Shown here one piece after another: positions 45,003 through 60,404 of a stretch of 64,000 nt of DNA. A model generated the notes under the pieces. It made no database searches. It had not been told where the DNA came from and worked only from the letters and a program-made list of their open reading frames with translations. Numbering within the stretch: position 1 is the stretch's first letter; each line of letters starts with the position of its first letter. The position numbers and the translations under genes are program-made. Source of the stretch: Synechococcales cyanobacterium C42_A2020_086 (lineage in GTDB: Bacteria; Cyanobacteriota; Cyanobacteriia; Elainellales; Elainellaceae); contig JACYLU010000001.1 in assembly GCA_015272325.1 (NCBI GenBank), positions 1 to 64,000 on the forward strand. Direction: 5' to 3'.

Positions 45003-46613
45003 TTAGCGAGTCACAACTAGGGGGCAGAGGTGAGGCTGGTTTCGGTTCTCTCCAGCGTCACAGCTCGGCTCAACCAGTTCTGCCGTTGAAACGGGAAGTT
45101 CAATCCAAACTTCGGTGCCGCCATCAGGCTGCGCGTAGCACTGCAACTCGCCGCCGTGTTGCTCTACAATCCGACGGCAACGGTCCATCATGGCGTCTGC
45201 AGCTTCGATCTCCTCGCCCCCCGAAGAAACGGGTCGATTGTCGGCAATGCAGAGCACAACTCGCGGGCTGCTGCCATAGGGATCAGGGATGAAGCGGCTA
45301 CGAAGAATGAGCTGCGGCAACGCCCAGCCCTGCTGGTAGAATGCTCTCAGCGTCTCGATAGCCCTACTTAGCAGTGTCCTGATCAGCTCATCAAGTTCGC
45401 TGCTGTAACCGACAAGCGCAGGCAGTTGCCCATACTCTTTGATCACTTTAATGCCTTGAAATTCGGGCGTGGGTTGCAGCCGATGGTTCAGCAAGACCAG
45501 CGTGCTGTCTAAGCGGTCGTGCAGATCAATCCGCTGGAGTTTGGACGGTTCTGCACAAGCGGCGCTCTGCAGCGACTGCACTAGCTGCCGAAGGCGCTCT
45601 GCCCCCAACCGAAGAGACGCTAGCAGCTTCGGAAAGTCTTGCTTGAGGAAATCTAGATTCATTTCAACTAGGGAATGGTTCAGCTCCGCCTCGGGAACTG
45701 GTTGCTGCTGATGCCGCTCAATCAACCGCAGCAGCGTTTCAGCGTAGTTCTGTGCGTGAACTAGATTGCTACAGAGGAAATTCACCGGATGGCTCATGTC
45801 TTGAGCAACCCCTCCCACCAGTTGACCGAGGCTAGACAGAGACTCCTGTTGTCGAAGCTGGATTTGGCTGCGCGAGAGCTGCTCTAGTGCCTCGTTCAAA
45901 GCTTGCGACCGCTGTTGCAACTGGGACAGCAAGGTAGCCTGTTGCAGGGCAAGGCGCACGTGTAGTCCAACTTGAGTCACCCAGGCGAGTTCATCAGCTT
46001 GCCAAGCACGAGGAGCCGTACACTGCTGAATCCAGAGCCAGCCCCAAAGCGTCTTTCCCTGAAAGAGCGGTGCTCTCAGGCTAGCGCGGACTTGCCAACG
46101 CTCTAACTGCTGGATCGAGTTGGCTGGCAACCCACTCCGGTAGATGTCGGCAATGACCTGCATCTGCTCGGGTTTCGCTGGCTCTAGGGCTGATGTGCTA
46201 AAGCAGAACGGTTGCAGCGAAGCATTCAGAATTGAGGTCACTCCAGAGGCAACAGCTTCAGCTAGACTGGTGCAGACCCATTGCCCATCGCTGGAGTCGG
46301 CGTGCTGATTTCGTTGGGCATCGAGACGAACCAAGACAACGCGATCCGCCGCTAGCTCTTGGCGAACTTCAGTGGCAACACTACTCAGAACGGTTGCTAG
46401 ATCAACTGGCTCCTGCAGCAGGGTACTGATCCGCAGCAAGACCTGATCCCGACGTCGCTGCTGCCAATCGCTCACCACCATTTGCTTCATCTGCTGAAAC
46501 GCAGCCTGATCTCGACAGCAGACTTGCACCTGATCGAGCACTTGATCGAAATGGGCAAACATCATATGCAAGAGCCAATTAAACGTGGGAGAGCAAGGAT
46601 CATGGCAGCGCAC
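45003..46613 (-). CDS. Degenerate sensor histidine kinase (GAF domain, pseudokinase)
   Basis: An intact 536-residue frame (Met17 at 46565 is a likely alternative start). A GAF domain spans ~55-225 (LAADRVVLVRLD, RASLRAPLFQGKTLWGWLWI). The dimerisation and catalytic domains follow the cyanobacterial HEINNPVNF histidine-kinase plan but have lost their chemistry. The H-box reads VAQDMSHPVNF with Gln271 in place of the phospho-acceptor His, the N-box reads LLSRAIETL with Arg for the ATP-contacting Asn, the G1 box reads ADNRPVSS, and no GxGLGL G2 box exists. It could act as a regulatory partner of an active kinase. The codon for Gln271 is CAA at 45803-45801. Confidence 0.88.
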   Translation of the reverse strand: MRCHDPCSPTFNWLLHMMFAHFDQVLDQVQVCCRDQAAFQQMKQMVVSDWQQRRRDQVLLRISTLLQEPVDLATVLSSVATEVRQELAADRVVLVRLDAQRNQHADSSDGQWVCTSLAEAVASGVTSILNASLQPFCFSTSALEPAKPEQMQVIADIYRSGLPANSIQQLERWQVRASLRAPLFQGKTLWGWLWIQQCTAPRAWQADELAWVTQVGLHVRLALQQATLLSQLQQRSQALNEALEQLSRSQIQLRQQESLSSLGQLVGGVAQDMSHPVNFLCSNLVHAQNYAETLLRLIERHQQQPVPEAELNHSLVEMNLDFLKQDFPKLLASLRLGAERLRQLVQSLQSAACAEPSKLQRIDLHDRLDSTLVLLNHRLQPTPEFQGIKVIKEYGQLPALVGYSSELDELIRTLLSRAIETLRAFYQQGWALPQLILRSRFIPDPYGSSPRVVLCIADNRPVSSGGEEIEAADAMMDRCRRIVEQHGGELQCYAQPDGGTEVWIELPVSTAELVEPSCDAGENRNQPHLCPLVVTR

Positions 46614-46717
46614 ACTGAGGTTTTAGCGCGGCTAGCGTTGAGACAAAGTATGGCAAACGTCTCAATCTCCCGTAACTGGTTAAAACCCTTAAGTTGACCT
46701 TAAGCCGCTCGATCGCG

Positions 46718-46852: not shown

Positions 46853-48193
46853 CTATTCATCTTGGGGTTGATTATTCAGCGTATTCAGCAGGTCGGGAAT
46901 GCCTTCACAGCCTCCGGGAATCGTAGCGCGGGTAGCCGCACCGCCCCAAGCACAGCAGTAATAGCGTTGTTCTTCGGACAGGCGCTGCACATTGGTGAAA
47001 TCGGCCCCTTCAATCACGGCTCCAGTGTAGGCTCCCGTCCGGTAGTCCGGAATATCGGTCCGAGTTCGAGGGGTGGCGGTTCGGGCGGAACCATAGAACA
47101 GGCGTGTGCCCATCATGTCGGATTCTGCCAGCACCGCATCGCAGAGGATAGTACGAGCCAAATTGGTTTTGACCAAATCGCAGCGGCTCAGGTTAGCACG
47201 AATGAGATTGATGTCGCTCAAGTCGGTCCAGCGCAAGTCGGTTCCAGACAGATCGGCACCAGCCAGCATGACTCCTAGATCAATCACCCGAACTCCGTAG
47301 TCGCGGTCCTCGGCGTAACCACCAGTGCCGTCTAGAATCGCCCGTCCGAGGCGACGGTCCCGCTTGAGGGGTGAGAGCAGCCGCGATCGCGACAGAAAGC
47401 GCAGCACCTTTGCTTTGCCCGAGGCATCAATGCTGCTGAGGATCGAAGCGGTACGGCCTTCAGCAATCGCCCGTTCCTGCGGCCAGTCTTCGAGCAGCCC
47501 TTCTTCATCTAGCACCAACTCGGAAATGCCCTGGAAGTAGGAGTCGATTGTCTGCTGCTGGGTGATGGTGTTTTGCTGGATCGTCAAATCTCTGGAAATC
47601 ACGTACTGTCGCCAGGCAATGTACACCGCCAAAACCGCAATTAGGATTTGCCCGATAGCACCACCAACCTCACCTGTCGCCCCAATTGCTTCCCAGTTGA
47701 GCTGACTGTACCAAGTCAAGAACCGTTGCCCCCAGCCCGAAAGCTGTAGAAATCCGACGGCGGCAGCTGTCAATCCTGCCAAACTCACCAAAATCAGCCG
47801 TTCTTGCGGTGAGATCCACTGAGTCAGCGCCACAATGGCAACACCCCACAACCCCCGCAGCGAAAGCAACAGCGCTACAAATGTTGCCGCCCCTGCCAGC
47901 CAACCATTACCGACGACAAATCCTAGAATCATCAGCCCTATAGACAGAAGAATGATCAGCTCCAGTGTTGGGCGTCTAGGGGGTGTTCGCAGGGGTGAAG
48001 CGGGTGGCATTGCGTCTGCTCTTAGCTCAGCCGGCCGGGACAGCACCGCGGTATCGTATTCCGTCGTGGTGGATGGCGGCTTCGTGCCATTGCGGCCATC
48101 CGATGGGTTTACCGCCGGATCACTTGCTGCTGGATAGGGAACGGCGGCACCGTCTTCGGATCCGGGAAAGGGAGAATTCGATTTCAGAGACAT
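46853..48193 (-). CDS. Pentapeptide-repeat membrane protein
   Basis: A 446-residue protein. The first ~75 residues are Pro/Ser/Asp-rich and disordered. Four hydrophobic segments follow (LIILLSIGLMILGFVVGNGW, LAGAATFVALLLSLRGLWGV, LILVSLAGLTAAAVGFLQLS, IGQILIAVLAVYIAWRQYVI), then a juxtamembrane helix (TIQQNTITQQQTIDSYFQGI). The C-terminal pentapeptide-repeat helix runs AGADLSGTDLRWTDLSDINL, IRANLSRCDLVKTNLARTIL. Such fusions are common in cyanobacteria and of unknown role. An 18-bp perfect palindrome lies 37 bp upstream of the start codon. Confidence 0.9.
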   Translation of the reverse strand: MSLKSNSPFPGSEDGAAVPYPAASDPAVNPSDGRNGTKPPSTTTEYDTAVLSRPAELRADAMPPASPLRTPPRRPTLELIILLSIGLMILGFVVGNGWLAGAATFVALLLSLRGLWGVAIVALTQWISPQERLILVSLAGLTAAAVGFLQLSGWGQRFLTWYSQLNWEAIGATGEVGGAIGQILIAVLAVYIAWRQYVISRDLTIQQNTITQQQTIDSYFQGISELVLDEEGLLEDWPQERAIAEGRTASILSSIDASGKAKVLRFLSRSRLLSPLKRDRRLGRAILDGTGGYAEDRDYGVRVIDLGVMLAGADLSGTDLRWTDLSDINLIRANLSRCDLVKTNLARTILCDAVLAESDMMGTRLFYGSARTATPRTRTDIPDYRTGAYTGAVIEGADFTNVQRLSEEQRYYCCAWGGAATRATIPGGCEGIPDLLNTLNNQPQDE

Positions 48194-58532: not shown

Positions 58533-60404
58533 ATGATGTCTTTTCGTCGTGTGTCCTTGATTTTGCTTGGCACTTTGATGGGAACCATTGGGATCCTTTA
58601 CGGCGTCTCCTCCACAATTTTGCTGAGTAGCTTTGAAGCCGTGGAGCGTCAGAAAACTGAACAGGATGTCGAGCGGGTTATGGAAGCCATCACGACCCGC
58701 CAGACCACGCTCCAAGCCAATGCCATTGACTACGCAGTGTGGGATGCCACCTACGACTTCGTGCAGGGGAAAAAGCCGGATTATCCCACAACCGATATCG
58801 GCATCGGCACCTTCAACACGGCACGCATTGACCTGATTGTGATTCGCGATGCTCAGCAGCAAATTGTTCACAGTGTTAACTACGATCGACCAACGGGCAA
58901 ACATCTGCCGCTGCCGCCCGAACTCCAGGCTGACTTGAGCCGTTCCTCCTATTCATCGCTCCTAAACCAGCAGCAGACCGGCTTCCTCCAGTTTGGCCAT
59001 ACCCTAGCCTTGGTGGCCTCTCATCCCATCCTTACGAGCGAGGGGCAAGGTCCCAGCGTCGGTAGCTTGATTCTTGCCCAATATTTGACTCCCGCGGCAG
59101 TGCAGCAGTTGGGCCAAGTGACGCAGCTCACGATTGGGCTATATCCGCTGTCTGGCGCACTGCCTTTGGATGTGCAGCAGGCATCAGCAACTTTGTCCGA
59201 CAGCGCTTCACGGGTAATACAGCCCCTCGACCGCCAGACTATTGCCGGTTATGTCTTGATCCCAGACATTCGCAATCAGCCGATCGCGGTGCTGAAAATT
59301 AGCAAGCCTCGAACGGTTTACCAGCAGGGCTTACTGAGCCTGCGCTATCTCGCGATGTCGCTCTTGATTGTCGGTGGCTTTGCAGGAATTGTCATGTGGC
59401 GGCTCGTCCAACAGGCAGCTCTCTTGCTGGCTGAGCGAAATCAAATCAAACAGGCGCTGCGGCAAGAAACGGCCCTGCGACAAGCGGATTTGAAGTATCG
59501 CCAGAAGGCTCAAGAGCTAGAGCAAACCCTGCGCGAACTGCAACACACCCAAGCTCGGCTCGTGCAGAGCGAAAAAATGTCGAGTTTGGGTCGTCTGGTG
59601 GCTGGTATTGCCCACGAAATCAACAACCCAGTGAATTTTATCTCGGGCAATGTGACCTACGCAGCAGACTATGTCCAGGTATTGCTGCAACTGGTGAACG
59701 CCTACCAGCAGCACTATCCTATACCACCTGAGGTGCAATCAGAATTTGAAGATCTGGATCTGGATTTTTTGAAAGAGGACCTGCTGAAACTGCTGAACTC
59801 GATGGCAGTGGGCAGCGAGCGAATTCAGCAGATTGTGCTGTCGCTGCGCAGCTTTTCTCGCCTCGACGAGACCGCCATCAAAACGGTCGATTTGCACGCC
59901 GGCATCGAGAGCACGCTACTGCTGTTGCAACATCGGCTGCAGCCGGATGCGCTCCCCTCGAGATTGCCCTGTTCTCCAAGCATTCGGGTGATCCGCGCCT
60001 ACGGCGATCTGCCGCCTGTGGAGTGCTATCCCAGCCAGCTCAACCAGGTATTCATGAATGTGTTGACGAACGCTATCGAAGCGCTGCAAAGGCAGCCCAT
60101 GGATGCAGCACCGCCCACCATCTGGATTGAAACCGAGCTGCAGGGAGACCATGTCATCGCTCGATTCGGCAATAACGGTCCCAGCATTCCAGAAACGATT
60201 CAGAACCAGGTGTTTGATCCGTTTTTCACAACTAAACCGGTTGGTCAAGGAACTGGATTAGGCTTGGCAATCAGCTACCAAATTGTGGTCGAGAATCATC
60301 ACGGGCAGATCTATTGCCAAAATTGCAACAATCGGGTGGAATTTGTGATGCACATTCCGCTGCGATTACGGTCGGCGGCTCCCGCTGTTTTGCAATCTGC
60401 CTAA
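58533..60404 (+). CDS. CHASE4-domain sensor histidine kinase
   Basis: A 623-residue membrane sensor. TM1 (~8-30) and TM2 (~268-290) bracket an extracytoplasmic CHASE4 domain with its hallmark DYAVWDATYDFVQG. A coiled-coil linker leads to the H-box with phospho-acceptor His361 (GIAHEINNPVNF), the N-box (FMNVLTNAIEAL) and the G2 region (FFTTKPVGQGTGLGLAISYQ). The G1 box reads FGNNGPSIP, i.e. Asn where Asp is usual. No receiver domain is attached and no response regulator is adjacent, so the partner is unknown. It aligns in order with the degenerate kinase at 45-46.6 kb and serves as its intact reference. Confidence 0.92.
   Translation: MMSFRRVSLILLGTLMGTIGILYGVSSTILLSSFEAVERQKTEQDVERVMEAITTRQTTLQANAIDYAVWDATYDFVQGKKPDYPTTDIGIGTFNTARIDLIVIRDAQQQIVHSVNYDRPTGKHLPLPPELQADLSRSSYSSLLNQQQTGFLQFGHTLALVASHPILTSEGQGPSVGSLILAQYLTPAAVQQLGQVTQLTIGLYPLSGALPLDVQQASATLSDSASRVIQPLDRQTIAGYVLIPDIRNQPIAVLKISKPRTVYQQGLLSLRYLAMSLLIVGGFAGIVMWRLVQQAALLLAERNQIKQALRQETALRQADLKYRQKAQELEQTLRELQHTQARLVQSEKMSSLGRLVAGIAHEINNPVNFISGNVTYAADYVQVLLQLVNAYQQHYPIPPEVQSEFEDLDLDFLKEDLLKLLNSMAVGSERIQQIVLSLRSFSRLDETAIKTVDLHAGIESTLLLLQHRLQPDALPSRLPCSPSIRVIRAYGDLPPVECYPSQLNQVFMNVLTNAIEALQRQPMDAAPPTIWIETELQGDHVIARFGNNGPSIPETIQNQVFDPFFTTKPVGQGTGLGLAISYQIVVENHHGQIYCQNCNNRVEFVMHIPLRLRSAAPAVLQSA

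Follow-up and report, generated by a model that had tools for sequence, protein, structure and literature searches.

The gene at 45003-46613 on the reverse strand of the window (the whole stretch of 64,000 nucleotides analysed here, from contig JACYLU010000001.1 of Synechococcales cyanobacterium C42_A2020_086) goes back to a histidine kinase of the DXCF cyanobacteriochrome type, and it is best explained, with a probability of about one half, as a pseudo-histidine kinase that has been retained under relaxed but continuing constraint and would act by binding. As judged by the residues that were compared, the protein fits a pseudo-histidine kinase, having homology to the DHp and CA domains without the catalytic residues, and it fails as an active histidine kinase and as a cyanobacteriochrome. 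The cyanobacteriochrome identity of its GAF domain and the loss of the chromophore site are additions to the preliminary description of this locus. The features are collected in Table 1.

Table 1. Positions of the features discussed, in the window unless a locus is named.
Feature	Position	Strand	Remarks
Pseudo-histidine kinase gene	45003..46565	-	Degenerate cyanobacteriochrome GAF + DHp + lid-less CA; start ATG 46565 likely
GAF domain	45945..46403	-	Residues 71-223; folded like a cyanobacteriochrome GAF, without the chromophore Cys-His; Pfam, PDB sequence and fold matches
PFCF replacing DHCF (DXCF motif)	46200..46211	-	Residues 135-138; alignment
N165-S166 replacing canonical chromophore Cys-His	46116..46121	-	Alignment
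DHp domain	45564..45926	-	Residues about 230-350; alignment, AlphaFold2 model
Gln271 replacing phospho-accepting His	45801..45803	-	Alignment
CA domain remnant	45084..45461	-	Residues 385-510, without ATP lid
N-box Thr413 and Arg417 replacing two Asn	45363..45377	-	Alignment
In-frame deletion site, most of G1 + F box + G2	45204..45239	-	Between N459 and about residue 470; alignment
Promoter-like element GGGTTTTRACNNNTTAC-N14-TTTGNCATACT	46647..46688	-	Conserved 5' of the gene in six genomes
Pentapeptide-repeat protein gene, syntenic anchor upstream	46853..48193	-	Synteny
Free-standing dead CA-domain proteins of G022/G035, about 200 aa	L093:5570-6175; L191:827-1414	-; +	From the same kinase gene

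The open frame has 536 codons from GTG 46613 and contains no stop. The likely true start is ATG 46565 (M17/M18, 519-520 aa), as indicated by alignment with the orthologues, whose N-termini read MN...CCRDQxAFExM. Pfam recognises the GAF domain with an E-value of 2.4e-12, and its HATPase_c match covers residues 479-509 alone, corresponding to the C-terminal strands, with a score under the cut-off. The AlphaFold2 model (mean pLDDT 79, pTM 0.51) is an ordered GAF-DHp-CA chain, in which the GAF domain, a long helix, the DHp hairpin and a lid-less CA core follow each other, and the GAF domain is folded with high confidence across most of its length. The GC3 value of the gene (0.60) is similar to that of the neighbouring genes, and it shows little codon preference (0.024 per codon, the second lowest among 16 scored genes).

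When the protein is aligned against 38 relatives, none of the features of an active histidine kinase (the phospho-accepting His, the N-box Asn and complete G1, F and G2 boxes) is found. The H-box AHEINNP reads AQDMSHP, so that Q271 stands where the phospho-accepting His should be. For the N-box MNLLSNAID the protein has RTLLSRAIE, and both Mg-ATP asparagines are gone (T413, R417). The G1 sequence IADNGxGIP is shortened to IADNRP, which keeps D458 and N459 without the glycines, and the F box and the GxGLGL G2 box (the ATP lid) are deleted in frame; the last C-terminal strands, HGGELQCYAQPDGGTEVWIELPV, are retained. This is in agreement with the preliminary description, which reported a frame of 536 codons without stops or frameshifts, Gln at the phospho-His, Arg at the N-box Asn, a broken G1 box and a missing G2 box, and it adds to these the loss of the second Asn and of the F box. 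Judging from these residues, the protein cannot bind ATP in the normal way or autophosphorylate. In a profile scan that gave 157 related kinase-core hits, some of them being the same gene in overlapping loci, three dead genes are present (the window gene, the G022 copy and one in G002), the G035 copy having been found later; because so few other dead genes occur among the hits scanned, the catalytic loss in the window gene is not a chance observation. The G002 gene (L011:1444-3057, minus strand) is non-syntenic; it keeps the His, has YLLTY as N-box, has lost the F box and G2, and is dead, on a long branch.

The GAF domain is related to those of cyanobacteriochromes. The orthologue L004 matches 6oap at 7.7e-47, together with further cyanobacteriochromes, and these PDB entries are matched by the window protein too (phmmer, 1.3e-20 for 6oap); the top Foldseek matches of the window protein are also cyanobacteriochromes, in agreement with the sequence matches. 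The DXCF histidine kinases of this type (6oap; PixJ, 3vv4 and 4glq; miRFP670nano, 6mgh) share with it the GAF fold and family and the soluble GAF-DHp-CA order, whereas the window protein is without the canonical Cys-His, the DXCF Asp and functional kinase boxes. In the alignment, nearly all single-GAF orthologues have DHCF as DXCF motif as well as the canonical Cys-His; in the window protein Cys-His has become N165-S166 and DHCF has become PFCF, in which the Asp is lost and Cys137-Phe138 is kept. In cyanobacteriochromes of this kind the bilin is bound at C3-1 by the canonical Cys and at C10 by the Cys of the DXCF motif (PMC11284453). With neither the canonical Cys-His nor the Asp of DXCF left, the window protein should be light-blind besides being kinase-dead, and the usual attachment of bilin should not be expected. 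A search of the PMC literature for degenerate DXCF cyanobacteriochrome kinases gave no match.

The history of the gene can be followed from its genomic position. The pentapeptide-repeat protein encoded upstream is well conserved and occurs in almost every genome of the family, and in the sister genus (g5, a GTDB genus separate from that of the window genome) an equivalent pentapeptide-repeat gene precedes the orthologous kinase. The syntenic orthologues of G004 and G033 encode the full protein, with DXCF, the canonical Cys-His and all kinase boxes. In G030 the syntenic copy (L092:5257-6351, minus strand; 364 aa) has its GAF domain deleted in frame and its kinase motifs intact. The syntenic copies of G022 (201 aa, N-box FTALIAQAIEAV, G2 absent) and G035 (195 aa, N-box FTSLIAQAIAAL, catalytically dead) are CA-only proteins. 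One locus thus displays the ancestor and several reduced forms. The downstream genes differ, being MarR and an HlyD/MacB efflux set in the window and, as named from sequence, a DUF72-like protein and an ABC transporter in g5, and no response regulator (REC domain) is found near the gene in the window or in the sister-genus loci. The protein search of the GTDB r220 contigs, a set in which the genus of the window copy consists of one species, gave no close relatives of this copy.

Between the stop of the pentapeptide gene and the kinase start, the element GGGTTTTRACNNNTTAC-N14-TTTGNCATACT is found in six of six genomes, with fixed spacing and few departures. A single exact copy, AGTTACG...TTTGCCATACT, is present in each of G000, G004, G022 and G035, and none in the reversed control. 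A simple scan for the sigma-70 consensus gave no match at this element, and Rfam gave no match around the window gene or its sister loci. The element looks like a promoter, and the window protein is probably made in the cell.

The window copy has changed much faster than its orthologues. Its GAF domain is 36-42% identical to theirs, compared with mostly 55-76% among the orthologues themselves, and its end branch in the tree is 1.36, compared with 0.22-0.33 for the nearest orthologues, or about 3.7 times their path. The acceleration spans every domain and not the catalytic site alone, and the neighbouring pentapeptide gene is not accelerated (0.23 versus about 0.16-0.18 plus inner branches). 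In the codon maximum likelihood analysis, omega = 1 is rejected for the window branch (2dlnL 63), and omega is below 1 in each domain. The branch value is 0.46-0.33 at 3-4.1 neutral changes per codon (clock-like), with a background of 0.13; it varies with the assumed branch length because the synonymous sites are saturated, and it averages the time before and after the loss because the exact lesions occur in no relative. With fixed branch lengths, omega is 0.54-0.39 for the GAF domain, 0.39-0.28 for DHp and 0.40-0.29 for CA, the GAF domain being the least constrained. Invariant residues are kept at 39 of 59 positions in DHp (residues 230-384), 38 of 68 in GAF and 16 of 42 in CA. New residues at hydrophobic positions are still hydrophobic in 38 of 52 cases (0.51 expected, p=0.001), and in the GAF domain such positions remain hydrophobic in 22 of 27 cases (p=0.001). 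When a neutral phase of about 0.2 changes per site is simulated, as estimated by us from the drop in identity from about 63% to 40%, 7-9 stops are expected and the probability of zero is below about 0.003, whereas no stop is observed and the frame is unbroken; for a very recent loss of function (d <=0.05), zero stops has a probability of about 0.04-0.12 or more. The best reading of these data is that the gene is relaxed yet constrained, with purifying selection that is reduced but real.

The two CA-only proteins provide a more direct test of selection, because both are without catalytic residues. Their CA parts share 73% identity, and the differences fall at 79 third positions, compared with 26 first and 23 second positions. 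For this pair, omega is 0.13 (CI 0.08-0.21; LRT against 1 = 77), and the indels across the conserved CA part are all in frame. The exact value is soft, owing to the high synonymous change; the excess at third positions is plain nonetheless. Part of the interval between the two could predate the last catalytic loss; the DHp domain, the N-box Asn and G2 are already absent from both. Clearly, at the locus of the window gene, purifying selection has acted on a protein that has no kinase function.

A dead gene that is kept intact, together with dead, cut-down copies in two relatives, suggests that the job of the remaining shell is probably non-enzymatic. This shell, presumably folded, would consist of the N-terminal segment, the long signalling helix, the DHp hairpin and the CA core. 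Its DHp/CA part may form a pair with, or compete against, an active member of this large kinase family or, alternatively, may dock the response regulator of such a kinase. Since the input and the output chemistry are both gone, a binding role of the DHp/CA part is the best-supported function; we infer both the binding mechanism and the partner. The heterodimerisation proposed in the preliminary description is plausible in this respect, as the DHp domain retains a larger share of invariant residues (39/59) than the other domains, but the kinase at 58.5-60.4 kb, which had been named for a test of heterodimer formation, is not singled out. Its domain order is not shared either, since it has a CHASE4 domain and no GAF domain. 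Sensing of a GAF ligand, the other suggested role, is weakened by the loss of the bilin-anchoring Cys-His and the DXCF Asp and by the GAF domain being the least constrained. For retention by selection speak omega below 1, the unbroken frame, the conserved upstream element and the purifying selection on the CA-only copies; the saturated branch and the occurrence of the lesion in no relative limit how far this can be taken. Against retention, the preliminary description would have counted orthologues that keep the His and GxGLGL combined with neutral decay in this strain: the syntenic orthologues of G004 and G033 do keep both motifs, but the decay is not neutral.

The main rival is slow decay, in which selection on the locus is relaxed in the clade and the window gene is dispensable, having simply not yet acquired a stop. 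That the lineages have lost different parts (the GAF domain in G030, both GAF and DHp in G022 and G035, catalysis and the chromophore site in the window copy) is what such decay would produce, as are the acceleration of every domain of the window copy, the disappearance of both its input and its output motifs and its weak codon preference. This explanation is nevertheless considered somewhat unlikely; it has to account for a frame without stops or frameshifts when neutral excess divergence would be expected to give 7-9 stops, for omega below 1 in each domain, for the omega of 0.13 and the exclusively in-frame indels across the conserved CA part of the CA-only copies, and for the conservation of the upstream element. 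Another possibility, which is improbable by comparison, is that the GAF domain has acquired a new sensing function, either for another ligand or for bilin held by Cys137 alone, in an allosteric, non-catalytic half of a heterodimer. The mostly confident fold of the GAF domain in the model, the retained Cys137-Phe138 of the DXCF motif and the conserved character of its hydrophobic positions (22/27, p=0.001) are compatible with such a sensor, but the canonical Cys and His are gone, as is the Asp of DXCF, the GAF domain is the fastest domain at fixed branch length, and the sister copies have dropped it entirely.

A separate question is how often catalysis was lost at this locus, and its answer fits retention as well as decay. 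If the window, G022 and G035 genes descended from one dead ancestor, the dead CA domain would be old and conserved across two genera. The replacements that they have in common (ExD/S for QxN ahead of the N-box, and Cys for Ser behind the lid) and the gnd DNA tree, which places G000 beside G022 and G035 (80/84), agree with this history, as did the first CA tree, calculated without G035, which joined the window and G022 copies (57/88). With G035 included, the support for the window and G022 copies as one dead clade is gone: the CA tree joins G022 and G035 to the intact g5 copies (85/85 and 91/86), leaving the window copy outside, which favours two losses. In addition, the deletions in the window copy are not like those in G022 and G035, and the sister genus is separated at the GTDB genus level. 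A single loss is not rejected by the AU test (p-AU 0.23-0.29), and on balance it is regarded as unlikely. It is tentatively suggested, as one step beyond the retained pseudo-histidine kinase preferred here, that blind and kinase-dead proteins were selected twice or more, independently, as the full-length shell in the window and as free-standing CA domains in G022 and G035, the DHp/CA scaffold being a two-component regulator that acts in trans.

A binding role of this kind can be compared with known systems. DivL of Caulobacter is active neither as a kinase nor as a phosphatase, and it binds DivK~P (PMC4211667); like the window protein, it is a histidine kinase scaffold without phospho-His and autokinase activity, and it acts by binding. 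DivL differs in that it has a Tyr, its ATP lid is ordered, its sensors are PAS domains and its place in a pathway is known (PMC4211667), whereas the window protein has Gln271, a deleted lid and a cyanobacteriochrome GAF domain, such that the DivL combination of Tyr and lid is not found in it. In C. glutamicum, CA-damaged ChrS promotes the signalling of a paralogous kinase (PMC9491836). Here also a histidine kinase is inactivated by damage to its CA domain, its presence does more than its deletion, and a paralogous kinase is linked to it, but it is a laboratory mutant of a heme-responsive sensor in which the His is kept, and not a natural lineage (PMC9491836). As far as the account of RetS and GacS in PMC9491836 goes, one histidine kinase modulates another by hetero-oligomerisation, the mode that is proposed for the window protein; the domain architecture is unlike that of the window protein, for which the pairing is a proposal. 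Taken as analogies, DivL and ChrS show that non-catalytic roles of histidine kinases exist.

Four forms of the gene are traced at a single syntenic locus: the intact ancestor, a kinase that has lost its sensor domain, a dead copy of full length, and a dead CA protein that stands alone and is under purifying selection. With this set of forms, it becomes testable which part of a kinase scaffold can be of use once catalysis is gone. Should the gene be decaying instead, the locus is a clear case of a photoreceptor kinase being lost stepwise. Pseudo-histidine kinases are recognised, and natural ones with a traced history are, to our knowledge, few.

Two further kinases are recorded here. The CHASE4 histidine kinase at 58533-60404 (plus strand) of the window has NNGPSI as its own G1 sequence, with Asp changed to Asn, and its other boxes are intact. 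As the special partner or closest paralogue of the window protein it is rejected: several other paralogues have a kinase core at least as close, and it is one of about ten at a similar distance. In G016, a related GAF kinase (L019:1024-2727, minus strand) has lost both chromophore Cys positions and keeps its kinase motifs.
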